This document shows, piece by piece, positions 3,832 through 61,003 of a stretch of DNA of 64,000 bases (positions are counted from its first letter, which is position 1; the number at the start of each line of letters is the position of its first letter). The stretch spans positions 1 to 64,000 of the forward strand of contig JAAYQF010000009.1 in the NCBI GenBank assembly GCA_012519425.1, given 5' to 3'. Under the pieces are notes generated by a model. That model was not told the DNA's origin. It was given only the letters and a program-made list of their open reading frames with translations, and did no database searches. The position numbers and the translations under genes are program-made. The stretch is from Bacteroidales bacterium (lineage in GTDB: Bacteria > Bacteroidota > Bacteroidia > Bacteroidales > Paludibacteraceae).

Positions 3832-4477
3832 ATGAAAAAATTAATGTTTGTTTTGGCTATGTATTATAGCCTTCTTCTGATTTCATGTGAAGTACAACCC
3901 GAAAGTCAAGTAACCGCTCCGGAAATTGAGAAAGGAGAAGTGGCTCTTGAAATGTTTTCTCATTCAAGAAGAATTGAGAAAATAACGCCCTTAGATGAGA
4001 GTAAGCATAGCGGATTTATTACTTCCGAACTACGCTCTCTGCTACCTGCACTTAAAAATAAACGTATGCGAGTCAGAACCAATTGAAACCGATTTGCATA
4101 ATAATTTTTCCAATATGATGGAGGCGTATAAATACGAACTACACACGTACTGTACCTACGAGTTTCCCGACGTAAACTTAGACAATGATTTTGCAGAACG
4201 CAACACCAATATTACAAAGCCACCACAAAATCGTACTCCATATCCCGTGGAAAACTGCTACACAAGATACATACGCATACCCGACGAACACGACGGTATA
4301 GTAAGTGCCAAACAAGTAATAATACCCGAACACAAAGGGGTAAAAGTGTGGAATGTGCGGGCTAAGGGCGTAAATCACCAAGAAATGGGAAACCATCCAA
4401 TAATGAGGGAAATTTTTTACAATGCGTTTAATGAAAAAGATATATATGAAAACACGTTTTATCTTGGCAATCACTAG
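3832..4477 (+). pseudogene. Degraded lipoprotein / alpha-beta hydrolase remnant
   Basis: Two overlapping frames appear to be parts of one former gene. The first (3832-4086) encodes a lipoprotein signal with lipobox LISC and about 65 mature residues, ending in a run of basic residues that looks out of frame. The second (open from 3995 to 4477, +1 frame) ends with EHDGIVSAKQ and, about 25 residues on, GVNHQEMGNHP. These resemble the catalytic Asp (DG[IV]V) and His regions near the C-terminus of lipase-like alpha/beta hydrolases. No nucleophile elbow is present, so the catalytic core is missing. A shift at the A-run near 4052-4057 would join the frames. The hydrolase link is inference from motifs only. 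Confidence 0.45.
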
Positions 4478-5735
4478 TATCGTGTTGTTACTCTCAGGCT
4501 GTTTTTTACCCCAGCCTGATGACATAAAAAAAGTTGAAGGCATTCAGCCTGTTTGGACAACTCAATTAGCAACTACTTGTTTGACATACAATAAAGGGCT
4601 TATTGGTCTGCCTTTATATAACGACAAGGTACTTTTTAATTCAACCAATTTTAGTAGGTTAAATAGTGTCGATAAAAACATCTATGAAGAGGATAATCGT
4701 ATCAACGCTTTGGATATCAATACCGGAGAAGTCCATTGGACTTTTCCGGCAGAATACTCCAAAGAAAATCCGATGTACTTTGATTCGAAACCCTATTGCA
4801 ATAATAACTATTTAGTGGTAAAGATGTCCGACTGGGGTACAAAGTATGAAGGAGGCGATATATTGCTCTGTTTTGATATGACTACAGGAACAGAAAAATG
4901 GAAAAGGGTAATCCCTAAAAACATGTCATATAACACCAATAACAACTTGCTCGGATTAGGAAAAACATTTTATTTTACACAAGAAACCGAAACGGAAGCT
5001 CTTATCTGCAAAGGGGATATTGAAACGGGAAATTGGGAAATCCTTTCAACTATAAAAGCGGAAAATAGTGAAGATATTGCAAGTTTAACAACTTCAGTTC
5101 CCGTTATGAGTTCCATAGACGGTAAAGACTTTTTAATTGTAGGTGGTTATGAAGAAAAATCAATTATATCTGATGAAGAAACTCAACATAAATGTTACCT
5201 ATATTTCGCAAACAGAAATAACGGTAATATAAATAAAGTGTTTGTTGAGCATTATGATAGTAATATGATTGTCGGCAATTTAAACCTATATGGAGACAAA
5301 CTGTACTTTACTTCCGGCAGACATGCCTTTTGCTATGATTTAGAACAAAATCAAATACAATGGCATTTTTTCTCCAATGAAGCTTATGACTATATGGCAC
5401 CACTTCTTATTGTTTCTCATGATGTTGTTTTTTTGTATGGGAACAATCGCTACATAGGTCTTGATGCTCAAACCGGACATAAACTTTATCAAGGTAATAC
5501 AGAATGTGCTAAAGCAGATGTATTTGATGGAAGGGTTTATCTGATAGGACGCATGGAACAACTTCATGTGTTGGATATAAAAACGGGTAGGGAATTACAC
5601 CGAATTACTTGCCCTGAAGATCCTAAAACCGGAAATGGTTTTCATATTGGTTGCAAACCACAAGTGCATGGAGATAAGCTATTTGTTTTTAGTTATACAA
5701 GTGCGTACTGCTATACTTTGTCGGATTTAAAGTAA
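4446..5735 (+). CDS. PQQ-repeat beta-propeller lipoprotein, copy 1
   Basis: 429-residue predicted lipoprotein with a PQQ-like beta-propeller. The start at 4446 is chosen because it aligns with copies 2 and 3 (KTRFIL.I.SI.LLLSGC); frames upstream at 4422 and 4431 are possible. The signal ends at lipobox LSGC. Propeller blades are marked by repeated ALDxxTG.xxW-type strands, for example RINALDINTGEVHWTF, LLCFDMTTGTEKW, YIGLDAQTGHKLYQ and HVLDIKTGREL. Such propellers usually bind proteins or cofactors rather than catalyse; the role is unknown. The N- and C-terminal thirds match copy 3 and the middle matches copy 2. The start overlaps the end of the upstream hydrolase remnant. Confidence 0.85.
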   Translation: MKTRFILAITSIVLLLSGCFLPQPDDIKKVEGIQPVWTTQLATTCLTYNKGLIGLPLYNDKVLFNSTNFSRLNSVDKNIYEEDNRINALDINTGEVHWTFPAEYSKENPMYFDSKPYCNNNYLVVKMSDWGTKYEGGDILLCFDMTTGTEKWKRVIPKNMSYNTNNNLLGLGKTFYFTQETETEALICKGDIETGNWEILSTIKAENSEDIASLTTSVPVMSSIDGKDFLIVGGYEEKSIISDEETQHKCYLYFANRNNGNINKVFVEHYDSNMIVGNLNLYGDKLYFTSGRHAFCYDLEQNQIQWHFFSNEAYDYMAPLLIVSHDVVFLYGNNRYIGLDAQTGHKLYQGNTECAKADVFDGRVYLIGRMEQLHVLDIKTGRELHRITCPEDPKTGNGFHIGCKPQVHGDKLFVFSYTSAYCYTLSDLK

Positions 5736-5753
5736 GTTAATTGTAAAAATTTA

Positions 5754-5842
5754 TTTATCTGTAGAGTTCAATAAGTGATTGATTTCGAATTAGTGTAAAA
5801 ACAAAATACCCATGCGTAAAACACGTTTTATCTTGGTAATCA
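5754..5842 (+). repeat. 89-bp direct repeat, unit 1 (5' of copy 2)
   Basis: This stretch, covering the upstream region and first 31 bases of lipoprotein copy 2, is identical to 7156-7244 in front of copy 3 (offset 1402). It marks the tandem duplication unit and implies that copies 2 and 3 share the same expression signals. Confidence 0.9.
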
Positions 5843-7098
5843 GTAGTATTGTATTGCTACTCTCAGGCTGTATGATACCACCACAGCCTGATGATATTAA
5901 AGTAGAAGGCATTCAGCCTAAATGGGCTACCAAAATAGGTAAAGCCGGTATATGGAACAATGGGTTAGTTGGTTTGCCCATTTACAATGATATGGTGCTG
6001 TTTCATTCAACTGAGTTCACGACATATCAGGGAAATGTTTTTGGGGATTTTGAAGAAGATAACAGAATCAACGCTTTGGATATCAATACCGGAGAAGTCC
6101 ATTGGACTTTTCCGGCAGAATACTCAAAGGAAAATCCCATGTACTTTGATTCGAAGCCCTATTGTTATAATAACTATTTAGTAGTAAAAATGCCAGTCTG
6201 GGGTACAAGGTATAAAGGTGGCGATATATTACTCTGTATTGATATGGCTACTGGGAAAGAAAAATGGAAAAAAGTAATTCCCAAAGATATGTCCTATAAG
6301 ACAAACAACGACCTAATCGGAATAGGAAAAATATTTTATTTCACACAAGAGACAGAGAAGGGGGCACTTATCTGCAAAGGAGATATTGAAAGCGGGAATT
6401 GGGAAATCCTTTCAACTATAAAAGCAGAAAACAATGAAGATATTGCAAGTTTAACAACTTCAGCTCCCGTTATTAGCACCATAGACGGTAAAGACTTTTT
6501 AATTGTAGGTGGTTATGAAGAAAAATCAGTTAAATCTGAGGAAGGAACTCAATATAAGTGTTACCTATATTTCGTAAACAGAAATAACGGTACTGTAAAC
6601 AAAGTTTTTGTTGAGCATTATGATAGTAATATGATTGTCGGCAATTTAAACCCTTATGGAGACAAACTGTACTTTACTTCTGGCAGACATGCCTTTTGCT
6701 ATGATTTAGAACAAAATCAAATACAATGGCATTTTTTCTCCAATGAAGCTTATAACTATATGGCACCACTTCTTATTGTTTCTCATGATGTTGTTTTTTT
6801 GTACGGGAATAACCGTTTTATTGGTCTATCTGCCAAAACCGGAGAAAAACTATATCAAAGTGATATTGAATGTGGAGGTGCTTCAGTTTGGAATGATTCT
6901 GTGTGTATTACCAGTCGCGACGGAAATATTTATATAGTTGATATAAAGACAGGCAGGCAGACTTTAAAAATAGAAGCACCAAAGAACTATGAATTGGGTA
7001 CTTATTTTGCCACAATTACTCCAAGAATTTATAACAATAAATTATTTTGTGTTGGGGAATATCATGCTTACTGTTACGACTTGAAAGAATTAGAGTAA
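5812..7098 (+). CDS. PQQ-repeat beta-propeller lipoprotein, copy 2
   Basis: 428-residue lipoprotein with signal peptide and lipobox LSGC (Cys20), then PQQ-type propeller blades (RINALDINTGEVHWTF, LLCIDMATGKEKW, AFCYDLEQNQIQWHF, YIVDIKTGRQ). Residues from about 75 to 335 are nearly identical to copy 1, including long stretches of identical DNA (around 6600-6800 against 5230-5430). The blade just after the signal and the last 90 residues differ clearly from copies 1 and 3. A strong terminator follows at 7111-7144. It is the only copy of the three followed by a visible terminator. Function unknown; a surface or periplasmic binding scaffold is a guess. Confidence 0.85.
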   Translation: MRKTRFILVISSIVLLLSGCMIPPQPDDIKVEGIQPKWATKIGKAGIWNNGLVGLPIYNDMVLFHSTEFTTYQGNVFGDFEEDNRINALDINTGEVHWTFPAEYSKENPMYFDSKPYCYNNYLVVKMPVWGTRYKGGDILLCIDMATGKEKWKKVIPKDMSYKTNNDLIGIGKIFYFTQETEKGALICKGDIESGNWEILSTIKAENNEDIASLTTSAPVISTIDGKDFLIVGGYEEKSVKSEEGTQYKCYLYFVNRNNGTVNKVFVEHYDSNMIVGNLNPYGDKLYFTSGRHAFCYDLEQNQIQWHFFSNEAYNYMAPLLIVSHDVVFLYGNNRFIGLSAKTGEKLYQSDIECGGASVWNDSVCITSRDGNIYIVDIKTGRQTLKIEAPKNYELGTYFATITPRIYNNKLFCVGEYHAYCYDLKELE

Positions 7099-7110
7099 CT
7101 TAAACAGCAA

Positions 7111-7144
7111 AATGCGTATCGGGATTACTTCCGGTACGCATTTT
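7111..7144 (+). terminator. Rho-independent terminator after lipoprotein copy 2
   Basis: A 14-bp stem (AATGCGTATCGGGA with TTCCGGTACGCATT, two G-T pairs) closes a 4-base loop at 7125-7128 and is followed by TTTT. It lies 12 bases after the stop of copy 2 and before the repeated leader of copy 3. Confidence 0.85.
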
Positions 7145-7155
7145 CAGGATATGCG

Positions 7156-7244
7156 TTTATCTGTAGAGTTCAATAAGTGATTGATTTCGAATTAGTGTAA
7201 AAACAAAATACCCATGCGTAAAACACGTTTTATCTTGGTAATCA
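7156..7244 (+). repeat. 89-bp direct repeat, unit 2 (5' of copy 3)
   Basis: Identical to 5754-5842. It spans the leader and the first codons of lipoprotein copy 3; identity stops at a G/A difference in the signal-peptide codons. Confidence 0.9.
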
Positions 7245-8493
7245 ATAGTATTATCTTATTACTCTCAGGCTGTATGATACCACCACAACCTGATGATATC
7301 AAAATAGAAGGCATTCAGCCTATATGGACAACCCAATTAGCAACAACCTGTTTAACATATAACGATGGACTTATTGGTTTGCCTTTATATAACGACAAAG
7401 TAATTTTTAATTCAACTAATTTTAGCAGGTTAAATAATGTCGATAAAAATATTTATGAAGAAGATAATCGTATTAATGCGTTGGACATGAATACCGGAAA
7501 GAGAAGTTGGGTATTTCCGGAACAATATGATAGTCTTTTCCCTCTATTATTTGACTCGACTCCTTATATTTTTAATGAATATCTACTACTGAAAATGCCT
7601 GCACCAAGAGGTGTTGAGGGGAATGACAGATTGTTGTGTATAAATATGGAAACAGGAAAAGAAGTGTGGCGCAAAATCGTGCAAAAAAACATTTCTTATA
7701 AAACAGGAAAAGATGTAATAGGCTTCCAATCCGACTATTTTATATTTCAAGAGACTAAACAAGATGCTATGATTTATAGCGGTAACATATTACACAGTGA
7801 AATAACTCCTTTATATACGTTTACTCCAAGTGAAGGATATGATTGTGTGGATTTTACAGGAAATGCCATTTACTATGAAAGCACTGAAAACAAACCTACA
7901 TTGTTGTTATTTCTCTTTGAAAAAAACTTTACGACTAGACAAGATAGCATAACCAGTGTTATTTTCGATATAAACAAAAATCAGATTGTAGCTAAACAGG
8001 GTATTTATCGAAAGGATAAAACCTACCGAGTTACCCGCTCCATCTTCTATAATTCTTTAGCCTACGTCAATTATGGCTCAGGATTGGCTTGCATCAATCC
8101 ACATACAAATCAAATAATGTGGCAGTACGATAGCTCCGAACCAGTCGATTTTCACACACCTCTTATGTGTATCAATAGTAATGTCGTTTTCCTATACTTC
8201 AATAACCGTTACGCTGGTCTTGACGCTCAAACCGGACATAAACTTTATCAAGGTGATATAGAATGTGCTAATACAGATGCATTTGACGGGCGGGTTTATC
8301 TGATAGGACGTAGGGGTATCTACATGTATTGGATATAAAGACGGGTAAAGAATTACACCGAATTACCTGTCCTGAAATGTCTAAAACAGGAGATGGTTTC
8401 AGTCATGGTTGCAAACCACAAGTACATGGAGATAAACTATTTGTTTTCAGCTACACGAGCGCGTACTGCTATGATCTGGCAGACCTGAAATAA
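7214..8493 (+). pseudogene. PQQ-repeat lipoprotein, copy 3, frameshifted
   Basis: The intact frame runs 7214-8338 (374 residues) with the same lipoprotein signal (lipobox LSGC). At about 8310-8320 one base is missing compared with copy 1, near the run AGGGG. The frame then ends at TAA 8336-8338, while the lost C-terminal ~50 codons (DIKTGKELHRITCPE to SAYCYDLADLK) continue in another frame to a stop at 8491-8493. Residues 25-90 and the last part match copy 1, while residues about 95-300 are unlike either other copy. The break may be a recent mutation, a slippery switch or an assembly error. The truncated propeller might still be made. Confidence 0.8.
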
Positions 8494-14792: not shown

Positions 14793-14886
14793 AAACAATT
14801 AGAGAAATATTTCTCTAATTAAACAAAAAAAGTATTTCTAAACATATAGATACAAACTATCCCGATGAAAAATTGTATTTTTGTGC

Positions 14887-15346
14887 GCGGTGTCTCATAA
14901 GGTCCGAGGTCCGAGGTCCGGAGTTGCAGGACGCAAACCGACCTTGACCGATGAGCCGAAAAATAAGTGAGATTGAAGTAAATAATCGTTCATGTTTGAG
15001 CTGCAGTCTCAAAAGAAAATATTCAATCAAAAACCCGCAAGGTGTCTTAGAAGTGTCTAAATGCAAGGCACTGAGATTGAGGGCGAAGGAGCATACTTGA
15101 AGTATGTGACTGAGCCCGAATATCGAAAGTAACGCAGTAGTTGGGCGCTTATGAGACACCGCTGAGTTTGGACGATTTAGCTGTTCGATCGCTAATTTTT
15201 CGAGCGAAGCGGGCACAGTCTTGATTTTTTTTTGCTTCGTTTTTTTGTATCAAGACAAAAAAATGAAGGAAGAACGAATAATGCTTTAAAAGTTGAATTT
15301 AACGTTAAATGCCCACTATTTTCAGTTGAATACTTATTTTGAGACA
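14887..15346 (-). repeat. Composite copy A of the dispersed GTCTCA repeat
   Basis: About 460 bp bounded by GCGGTGTCTCATAAG on the left and ACTTATTTTGAGACA on the right. Read on the minus strand it aligns end to end with copy C at 60326-60811. Inside it, 15005-15160 is a complete core in the opposite (plus) orientation, bounded by GTCTC and TGAGACACC and 160-bp copy B-like. Other internal marks are three tandem 7-base GGTCCGA-type units at 14901-14920 and an inverted repeat TCTTGAT/ATCAAGA around 15219-15255. Short frames inside are not convincing genes. Together with the pckA promoter it fills the 14694-15378 gap. Confidence 0.75.
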
Positions 15347-15378
15347 TATACTTTAGTTATCGTTTCAATTATCAGAAT

Positions 15379-31569: not shown

Positions 31570-31731
31570 GGTGCTGTCTCAAAAGTAAATATTTAACCAA
31601 AAACCCGCAAGGTGTCTTAGAAGTGTTCAAATGCAAGGCACTGAGATTGAGGGCGAAGGAGCATACTGAAGTATGTGACTGAGCCCGAATATCGAAAGTA
31701 ACGCAGCAGTTGGGCACTTATGAGACACCGC
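31570..31731 (+). repeat. Core copy B of the dispersed GTCTCA repeat
   Basis: About 160 bp bounded by GGTGCTGTCTCA (31570-31581) and TGAGACACCGC (31721-31731), forming imperfect terminal inverted repeats. Internally it is almost identical to the core inside copy A (15005-15160), including AACCCGCAAGGTGTCTTAG and CCCGAATATCGAAAGTAACG. This is the simple form of the element. It ends only 20 bases before the start codon of the outer-membrane receptor gene, so it occupies that gene's promoter region. No clear target-site duplication is seen. Confidence 0.85.
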
Positions 31732-31751
31732 CTGAAGTTTAAGCTTGAGCA

Positions 31752-42130: not shown

Positions 42131-42192
42131 CGACAGACCTTGACTGATGAGCCAAAAAACAAGTGAGATTGACGTAAAAAATCGTTCTTGAA
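42131..42192 (+). repeat. Fragment D of the composite repeat (outer part)
   Basis: About 60 bases (ACCTTGACTGATGAGCC, AAGTGAGATTGACGTAAA, ATCGTTCTTG) align with 14941-14992 in copy A and, reversed, with about 60650-60705 in copy C. Only this middle piece is left. It lies in the pepD-holB gap. Confidence 0.65.
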
Positions 42193-60307: not shown

Positions 60308-60325
60308 TTATCTTATTAATTATGA

Positions 60326-60811
60326 GGATGTTTCAAAAGATATTCTACTAAAAAACAGCAAGGCGTTTTATGTTAAGTTCATTATTCTCTCTTCATTTTT
60401 TGGCTTGAACCAAAAAACGAAGCAAAAAAGTTCAAGACTGTGCGTGCTTTGCTCAAAAAACTTGCGCTCAATTGACTAAATCGTTCAAACTCAGCGGTGT
60501 CTCATAAGCGCCCAACTGCTGCGTTACTTTCGATATTCGGGCTCAATCACATACTTCAGTATGCTCCTTTGCCCTCAATCTCAGTGCCTTGCATTTAGAC
60601 ACTTCTAAGACACCTTACGGGTTTTTGACTGAATATTTGCAGCTCAAACAAGAACGATTCTTTACGTCAATCTCACTTATTTTTCAGCTCACCAGGCAAG
60701 GTCGGTTTGCACCCTGCAGCATTTTTGACCTCGCGACCACGAAACTCAGAACCCGCAACCCCGAATATCAAAAGTAACGTAGTAGTCGGATACTCTTATA
60801 TTGAAACACCG
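60326..60811 (+). repeat. Composite copy C of the dispersed GTCTCA repeat
   Basis: About 485 bp bounded by GGATGTTTCAAAA (60326-60338) and TTGAAACACCGC (60800-60811). The outer ends resemble the ends of the simple core (ATATTC...CAGCAAGGCG and CCCGAATATCAAAAGTAACG). Within it, about 60494-60650 is a core in reverse orientation, starting GGTGTCTCATAAGCGCCCAA, which lacks the ~12 bases TCTTTTGAGAC seen in copy A. The whole aligns with copy A read on its minus strand. It fills most of the 60308-61068 gap; short frames within are not convincing genes. Confidence 0.75.
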
Positions 60812-61003
60812 CCTGCAAAAATACAAAAATGTTGTCAGATTTTATATTATTATGACACTGTGAGCTTACATTGTTTGAACCTCAAGAGTTTTCGAGAAAG
60901 AGGTAATGAAAAGAGATAATTGAGTTCTGAGTTCAATGTAAAATTGGTTCTCTTCCTTCTAATCTGCTCAAACAAACATTTAACATAAAAGTTTTATTTT
61001 TTA

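Follow-up and report, generated by a model that had tools for sequence, protein, structure and literature searches.

The window, the 64,000-nucleotide stretch of a Bacteroidales genome analysed here, contains two long repeats, copies A and C, in each of which a short dispersed element (the core) is enclosed by outer ends resembling its own. We asked how one repeat came to lie within another, and whether the composite then spread as a unit, as the original prediction had proposed. In the reading that we prefer, to which we give a probability of about 80%, the core is a ~163-bp IS1182-type miniature element (MITE) that replaces stem-loops without target duplication, and A and C are old MITE copies holding a second repeat, XZ, the tip of which was later replaced by a younger MITE.

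Genomes and copies

The genome that contains the window is a 2.39-Mb draft in 142 contigs, 94.7% complete, in which contig breaks fall in repeats. Copy numbers are lower bounds, being taken from the places and stretches searched. Searching it with copy A resulted in 64 matching places at E≤0.001, far beyond chance. The same core is held by named Paludibacter-type Bacteroidales genomes, foremost Bacteroidetes bacterium ADurb.Bin174 (G005), which has many loci in common with the window's genome at ~87–93% identity. Two further entries, G025 and G049, are the same genome, Paludibacter sp. RC263. An Rfam search of the window matched tRNAs alone. Positions 4422–8338 of the window hold tandem paralogues, seen as three consecutive long ORFs (437, 428, and 374 aa) with direct repeats D1–D6.

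Architecture of the composites

In a global alignment of 528 columns, copies A (14885–15352) and C (60324–60813) match from one end to the other, as had been claimed, and 385 positions are identical. Both have outer ends similar to those of the simple 163-bp element at 31570–31732 (alignment z against shuffles of 4.5 and 6.8 for A, 6.6 and 9.1 for C), which bears out that part of the prediction as well. Each core is inverted relative to its own outer ends; the expectation that both cores would also be complete failed for C, from which the final ~16 bp of the right end are absent. What separates the outer ends from the core is no part of the MITE: it is another repeat, XZ, and the composite thus has three layers, not two: an old MITE, the XZ hairpin repeat inside it, and a younger MITE at the XZ tip. 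The proposal that a core had inserted into an older copy was therefore right in placing a younger element within an older one and wrong in taking the insertion to be directly into the MITE, as the core sits in the XZ hairpin. The composite encodes no transposase, as stated earlier, and mobilisation in trans is likely. The features are as follows.

14885–14901, plus strand: copy A, outer (old) MITE left end GCGGTGTCTCATAAG; 16/18 to the MITE left end; orthologous end in G005
14902–14938, minus strand: copy A, XZ tail, low-complexity of the GGACCTCGGACC type; like the tails after simple XZ copies
14939–14999, minus strand: copy A, Z arm (3' half of the XZ hairpin); Z match 1–61 of 61, 80%
15001–15163, minus strand: copy A, younger MITE (core) replacing the XZ tip stem-loop; core match 3–162 of 163, 94%
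15164–15268, minus strand: copy A, X arm (5' half of the XZ hairpin); X match 1–105 of 105, 97%
15269–15306, minus strand: copy A, leader from the outer MITE end to XZ; similar leader in C and at locus L104
15307–15352, plus strand: copy A, outer (old) MITE right end, ending in TTTTGAGACATATAC; 31/50 to the MITE right end, z 4.5; orthologous in G005
31570–31732, minus strand: simple 163-bp MITE, having replaced the stem-loop AAAATCTTCC-CAAAA-GGAAGATTTT; empty orthologous site in G005
42133–42190, minus strand: solitary Z-arm fragment of XZ; Z match 6–60 of 61, 82%
60324–60366, minus strand: copy C, outer (old) MITE right end, beginning GAGGATGTTTCAAAAG; 33/49 to the MITE right end, z 6.6; orthologous in G005
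60391–60492, plus strand: copy C, X arm of XZ; X match 1–105 of 105, 84%
60493–60638, plus strand: copy C, younger MITE (core), right end truncated; core match 3–147 of 163, 94%
60644–60704, plus strand: copy C, Z arm of XZ; Z match 1–61 of 61, 84%
60705–60760, plus strand: copy C, XZ tail; locus L091 has the same tail and the same junction to the MITE left end (CGCGACCCCGAATATC)
60761–60813, minus strand: copy C, outer (old) MITE left end; 41/58 to the MITE left end, z 9.1; orthologous in G005

The layers differ in age. G005 has the outer MITEs of A and C at its orthologous loci, which makes them older than the split between these genomes; at locus A of the more distant genome G049, the element is absent. 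In G005, deletions run through the XZ hairpin at both loci and mask the time at which the cores arrived. At two other loci, L091 and L104, related remnants of an outer element plus XZ follow the same order, and the outer MITE may thus have multiplied together with the XZ that it contains.

The XZ repeat

XZ is ~179 bp long, with CTTCATTTTTTTGTCTTGATAC at its start, CAAGGTCG at its end, and a low-complexity tail after it. It occurs whole and core-free, between unrelated flanks, at many places of the window's genome. XZ is independent of the MITE: among 48 genomes of the genus, 31 contain XZ and 6 contain the core. The repeat forms a long imperfect hairpin with 51 predicted pairs, and in 11 of these the 13 copies compared show paired changes on both sides. 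An Rfam search of XZ loci returned nothing at E≤0.5. At an empty tip, the sequence reads ACTC/GCAACTTCGTTGC/TCAAAC (slashes mark junctions), with 13 nt between fixed arms in at least 15 copies, and tip variants such as GCTGCTACGCAGC retain the stem through paired changes (GCAAC with GTTGC, GCTGC with GCAGC). The copies L250:1501-1679 and L037:774-952 exemplify the covarying hairpin, the variable tip stem-loop, and the GGAACCCG-type tail. In XZ copies of other species (L253:1501-1683 and L255:1501-1682), unrelated longer tip stem-loops (GTTTCC...GGAAAC and CCTGTCG...CGACAGG) lie between the conserved arms, as if tips had been exchanged.

The core is a MITE with IS1182-type ends

The core is a short, mostly intergenic element with terminal inverted repeats (GGCGGTGTCTCATAAG and GGGGCTGTCTCAAAAG) and without a transposase. 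Clean copies begin with GGCGGTGTCTCATAAG, end with CTTTTGAGACAGCCCC, and have variable interiors, so that total length is ~41–182 bp. The MITEs at loci L096, L088, and L185 differ from their G005 orthologs by internal insertions and deletions, with the ends kept. One further sequence, ACTGAAGATAYGGCAAGAATATATATTGG, flanks the copies L079, L126, L132, and L139 and is possibly another target repeat.

The ends of the MITE match those of IS1182-family elements in congener genomes at 15 of 16 bases. The IS ends read GAGGCTGTCTCAAAAG in G022 and GAGGCTGTCTCAAAA in G025 (the latter also given for both genomes jointly), and the end of the G025 element is also recorded as GAGGCTGTCTCAAAAT. The transposases of these elements are 508–549 aa long and score 449 (G022) and 430 (G025) bits with the NCBIfam IS1182 model (NF033551; cut-off 270). 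IS1182 partners were found in G022, G025, and G034, with TGTCTCA ends not seen for G034. The search for a transposase with matching ends, advised at the outset, was thus successful in congeners and unsuccessful in the window's own genome, where the 94.7% complete draft gave no match to PF13751, PF05598, or NF033551, so that the MITE there is either an orphan or dependent on an unassembled or lost partner. Two other candidate mobilisers were discarded: no DDE_Tnp_1 (PF01609) transposase is present in the window's genome, and the two DUF772 transposases of G005 (L233) are IS5/ISNCY-like and belong to an element without TGTCTCA ends. Beyond ~16 bp of the ends, comparison of MITE and IS by eye revealed no similarity. 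The connection to IS1182 therefore rests on the ends and the mode of target use, from which we infer that an IS1182 transposase moves the MITE.

Stem-loops are replaced at occupied sites

In occupied XZ copies, the 13-nt tip stem-loop is gone, its position taken by the MITE in either orientation. The junctions are exact at loci L108 and L127 (ACTC/GGGGCTGTCTC...GACACCGCC/TCAAAC) and at L089 (ACTC/GGCGGTGTC...AGCCCC/TCAAAC), and nearly exact at L134. Copies A and C retain GCAGC at the right junction (ACTC/AGCGGTGTC...GCAGC/TCAAAC in A), which counts against exact replacement, and replacement at these two was either inexact or later reworked. An orthologous pair captures both states of one XZ copy: it is empty in the window's genome (C95) and occupied in G005 (L144), with flanks 96–99% identical and with the upstream flank and the XZ arms nearly identical.

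Replacement is also seen outside XZ. Where the window has the simple MITE at 31570–31732, the G005 ortholog carries CCTTAAAATCTTCCCAAAAGGAAGATTTTGAAG; its stem of 10 bp, with a loop of 5 nt, was matched by 0 of 3000 random placements in the window. The ortholog of C9:44388 in UBA1402 has CTTTTTAATTTTTAAAAAG (8+3+8 nt; P = 0.007, or 0.7% of random placements), and that of C46:5106 in G005 has GTTCTTAAATTTAAATTTAAGAGC (stem of 10; P = 0.0013, or 0.13%). Some observations count against stem-loop replacement: the empty site of C97:2594 has a 4-bp stem only (P = 0.33), at that of C56:3188 the replaced segment coincides with no stem-loop, and the XZ tip stem by itself is not rare (P = 0.13). Of six empty target types, four are clear (the XZ tip and three more loci), one is weak, and one is an exception, with stem background rates taken from the window only and the boundaries of replaced sites set by alignment. 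Some further orthologous loci were uninformative: at L082, L088, L096, and L185, the MITE is in both genomes, and at L086, L092, L097, L112, L128, L132, and L140, the ortholog is either scrambled or interrupted by a contig end. The target-site duplications that had been suggested as a check were absent at the orthologous pairs, and the flanks of 45 copies gave a weak direct-repeat signal (p = 0.017) and no inverted-repeat signal (p = 0.26), which also counts against the preferred reading. With no clear signal across these copies, target duplications and inverted flanks were both rejected as a general signature.

If the 160-bp repeat and XZ were ordinary intergenic hairpins of the REP or terminator type, alike through recombination only and never transposed, the lack of an IS1182-type transposase gene in the window's genome and the mostly intergenic location of the copies would follow naturally. 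We consider this highly improbable given the presence and absence of the element at orthologous loci with exact junctions, and given terminal inverted repeats that match the IS1182 elements of congeners. We propose instead that the MITE would transpose by swapping out a target stem-loop, leaving no target duplication, and that the target is probably recognised as a hairpin or cruciform. Nesting would arise because the MITE lands on DNA hairpins, the XZ tip included, and replaces them: A and C would be old, diverged MITE copies holding the mobile hairpin repeat XZ, in which a fresh MITE copy later replaced the tip stem-loop.

Origin and recurrence of the composites

Seventeen cores were identified inside XZ, all of them at the tip and some cut by contig ends. 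Eleven are in the window's genome, in a single orientation, and six are in G005, three of these in the opposite orientation. One XZ copy (C72 in the window's genome, L134 in G005) has its core in opposite orientations in the two genomes. Occupied and empty X sequences are intermixed (10 label changes, with a mean of 9.5 after shuffling), and a single origin of all same-orientation composites was rejected, since placing them in one clade gave AU p-values of 1.8e-5 for X and 0.009 for the cores. Together with the XZ copy that is empty here and occupied in G005, these results do not support the claim that the composite generally spread as a unit. The proposed tree of cores and composites contradicts a single origin of the same-orientation composites, and within it the core of A is sister to that of C (support 98/77), with a common junction, ACTC/AGCGG...GCAGC/TCAAAC, so that a common origin of the core is possible for this pair.

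For A and C themselves, transposition of the outer ends, XZ, and core as one mobile unit would account for the common order and orientation of all layers, for the sister cores, and for the similarly ordered remnants at L091 and L104. We nevertheless regard it as unlikely. The other X-core-Z composites have no outer MITE ends, A and C have X sequences from different XZ groups (a single clade brings a penalty of 13.2 log units, AU p = 0.07), and the outer junctions of A and C differ on the left-end side. G005, moreover, has outer elements without a core at both loci, a comparison blurred by the deletions there. A rather stronger case, which we still hold to be doubtful, can be made for cores having entered XZ once or a few times and then spread by homologous recombination or gene conversion between XZ arms rather than by transposition. 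Composite cores resemble each other more than expected (9 changes, compared with 15.5 in shuffles, 0/300) while their host X sequences are mixed, six composites have the junction ACTC/AGCGG in common, and copy A unites the X arm of one XZ group with the Z arm of another, suggesting that recombination between XZ copies may also pass cores around. Such exchange would not explain why cores in opposite orientation are nearest to different solo copies (L127 to L122; L134 to L079 and L092), which argues that several composites are independent insertions, and stem-loop replacement at non-XZ loci is beyond the reach of recombination between XZ copies. Replacement of stem-loops by the MITE thus remains our preferred reading. 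As XZ is multicopy and has a small tip stem-loop, it would offer a reusable landing site at which composites form repeatedly in place. We suggest more tentatively, at somewhat less than even odds, that the XZ tip is a standing docking site for the MITE and that the host and guest repeat families co-evolve through such recurrent composites.

Relation to known elements and significance

In Staphylococcus, IS1272, a member of the IS1182 family, replaces target stem-loops without target duplication (PMC5678879), and TnSha1 does so with the same hairpins hit repeatedly (PMC4923244); the targets of the two include terminators and recurrent hairpins (PMC5678879, PMC4923244). The MITE appears, from its insertion sites, to act likewise. 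It differs from both in being a non-autonomous 163-bp element of Bacteroidota, in replacing shorter stems (4–10 bp, 12–25 nt), and in often having as its target the tip of another dispersed repeat, which results in nested composites. The Porphyromonas gingivalis families MITE239, MITE464/PgRS, MITE700, and BrickBuilt are, like this MITE, short non-autonomous intergenic repeats of Bacteroidales with inverted ends; these ends match the IS5 family (GAGACC... and ACGTCA...), and stem-loop replacement is not reported in the portion of their description consulted (PMC4596501). As the ends here are of the TGTCTCA type, these families were rejected as an identification. IS1111 of Coxiella inserts into QMITE2 palindromes (PMC10969869), and so also targets a palindrome within another small repeat, but it is an autonomous IS of another family, whereas the MITE here replaces the stem-loop.

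Among the open-access papers found, hairpin replacement is described only for IS1272-type staphylococcal elements. It is an unusual and irreversible mode of transposition, and it explains nested composites without any mobile composite. Natural insertion sites number in the dozens, some of them have an orthologous empty allele, and they are enough to begin defining the target rule. That a MITE of Bacteroidota also replaces stem-loops suggests that IS1182 ends and transposases have this property in general.
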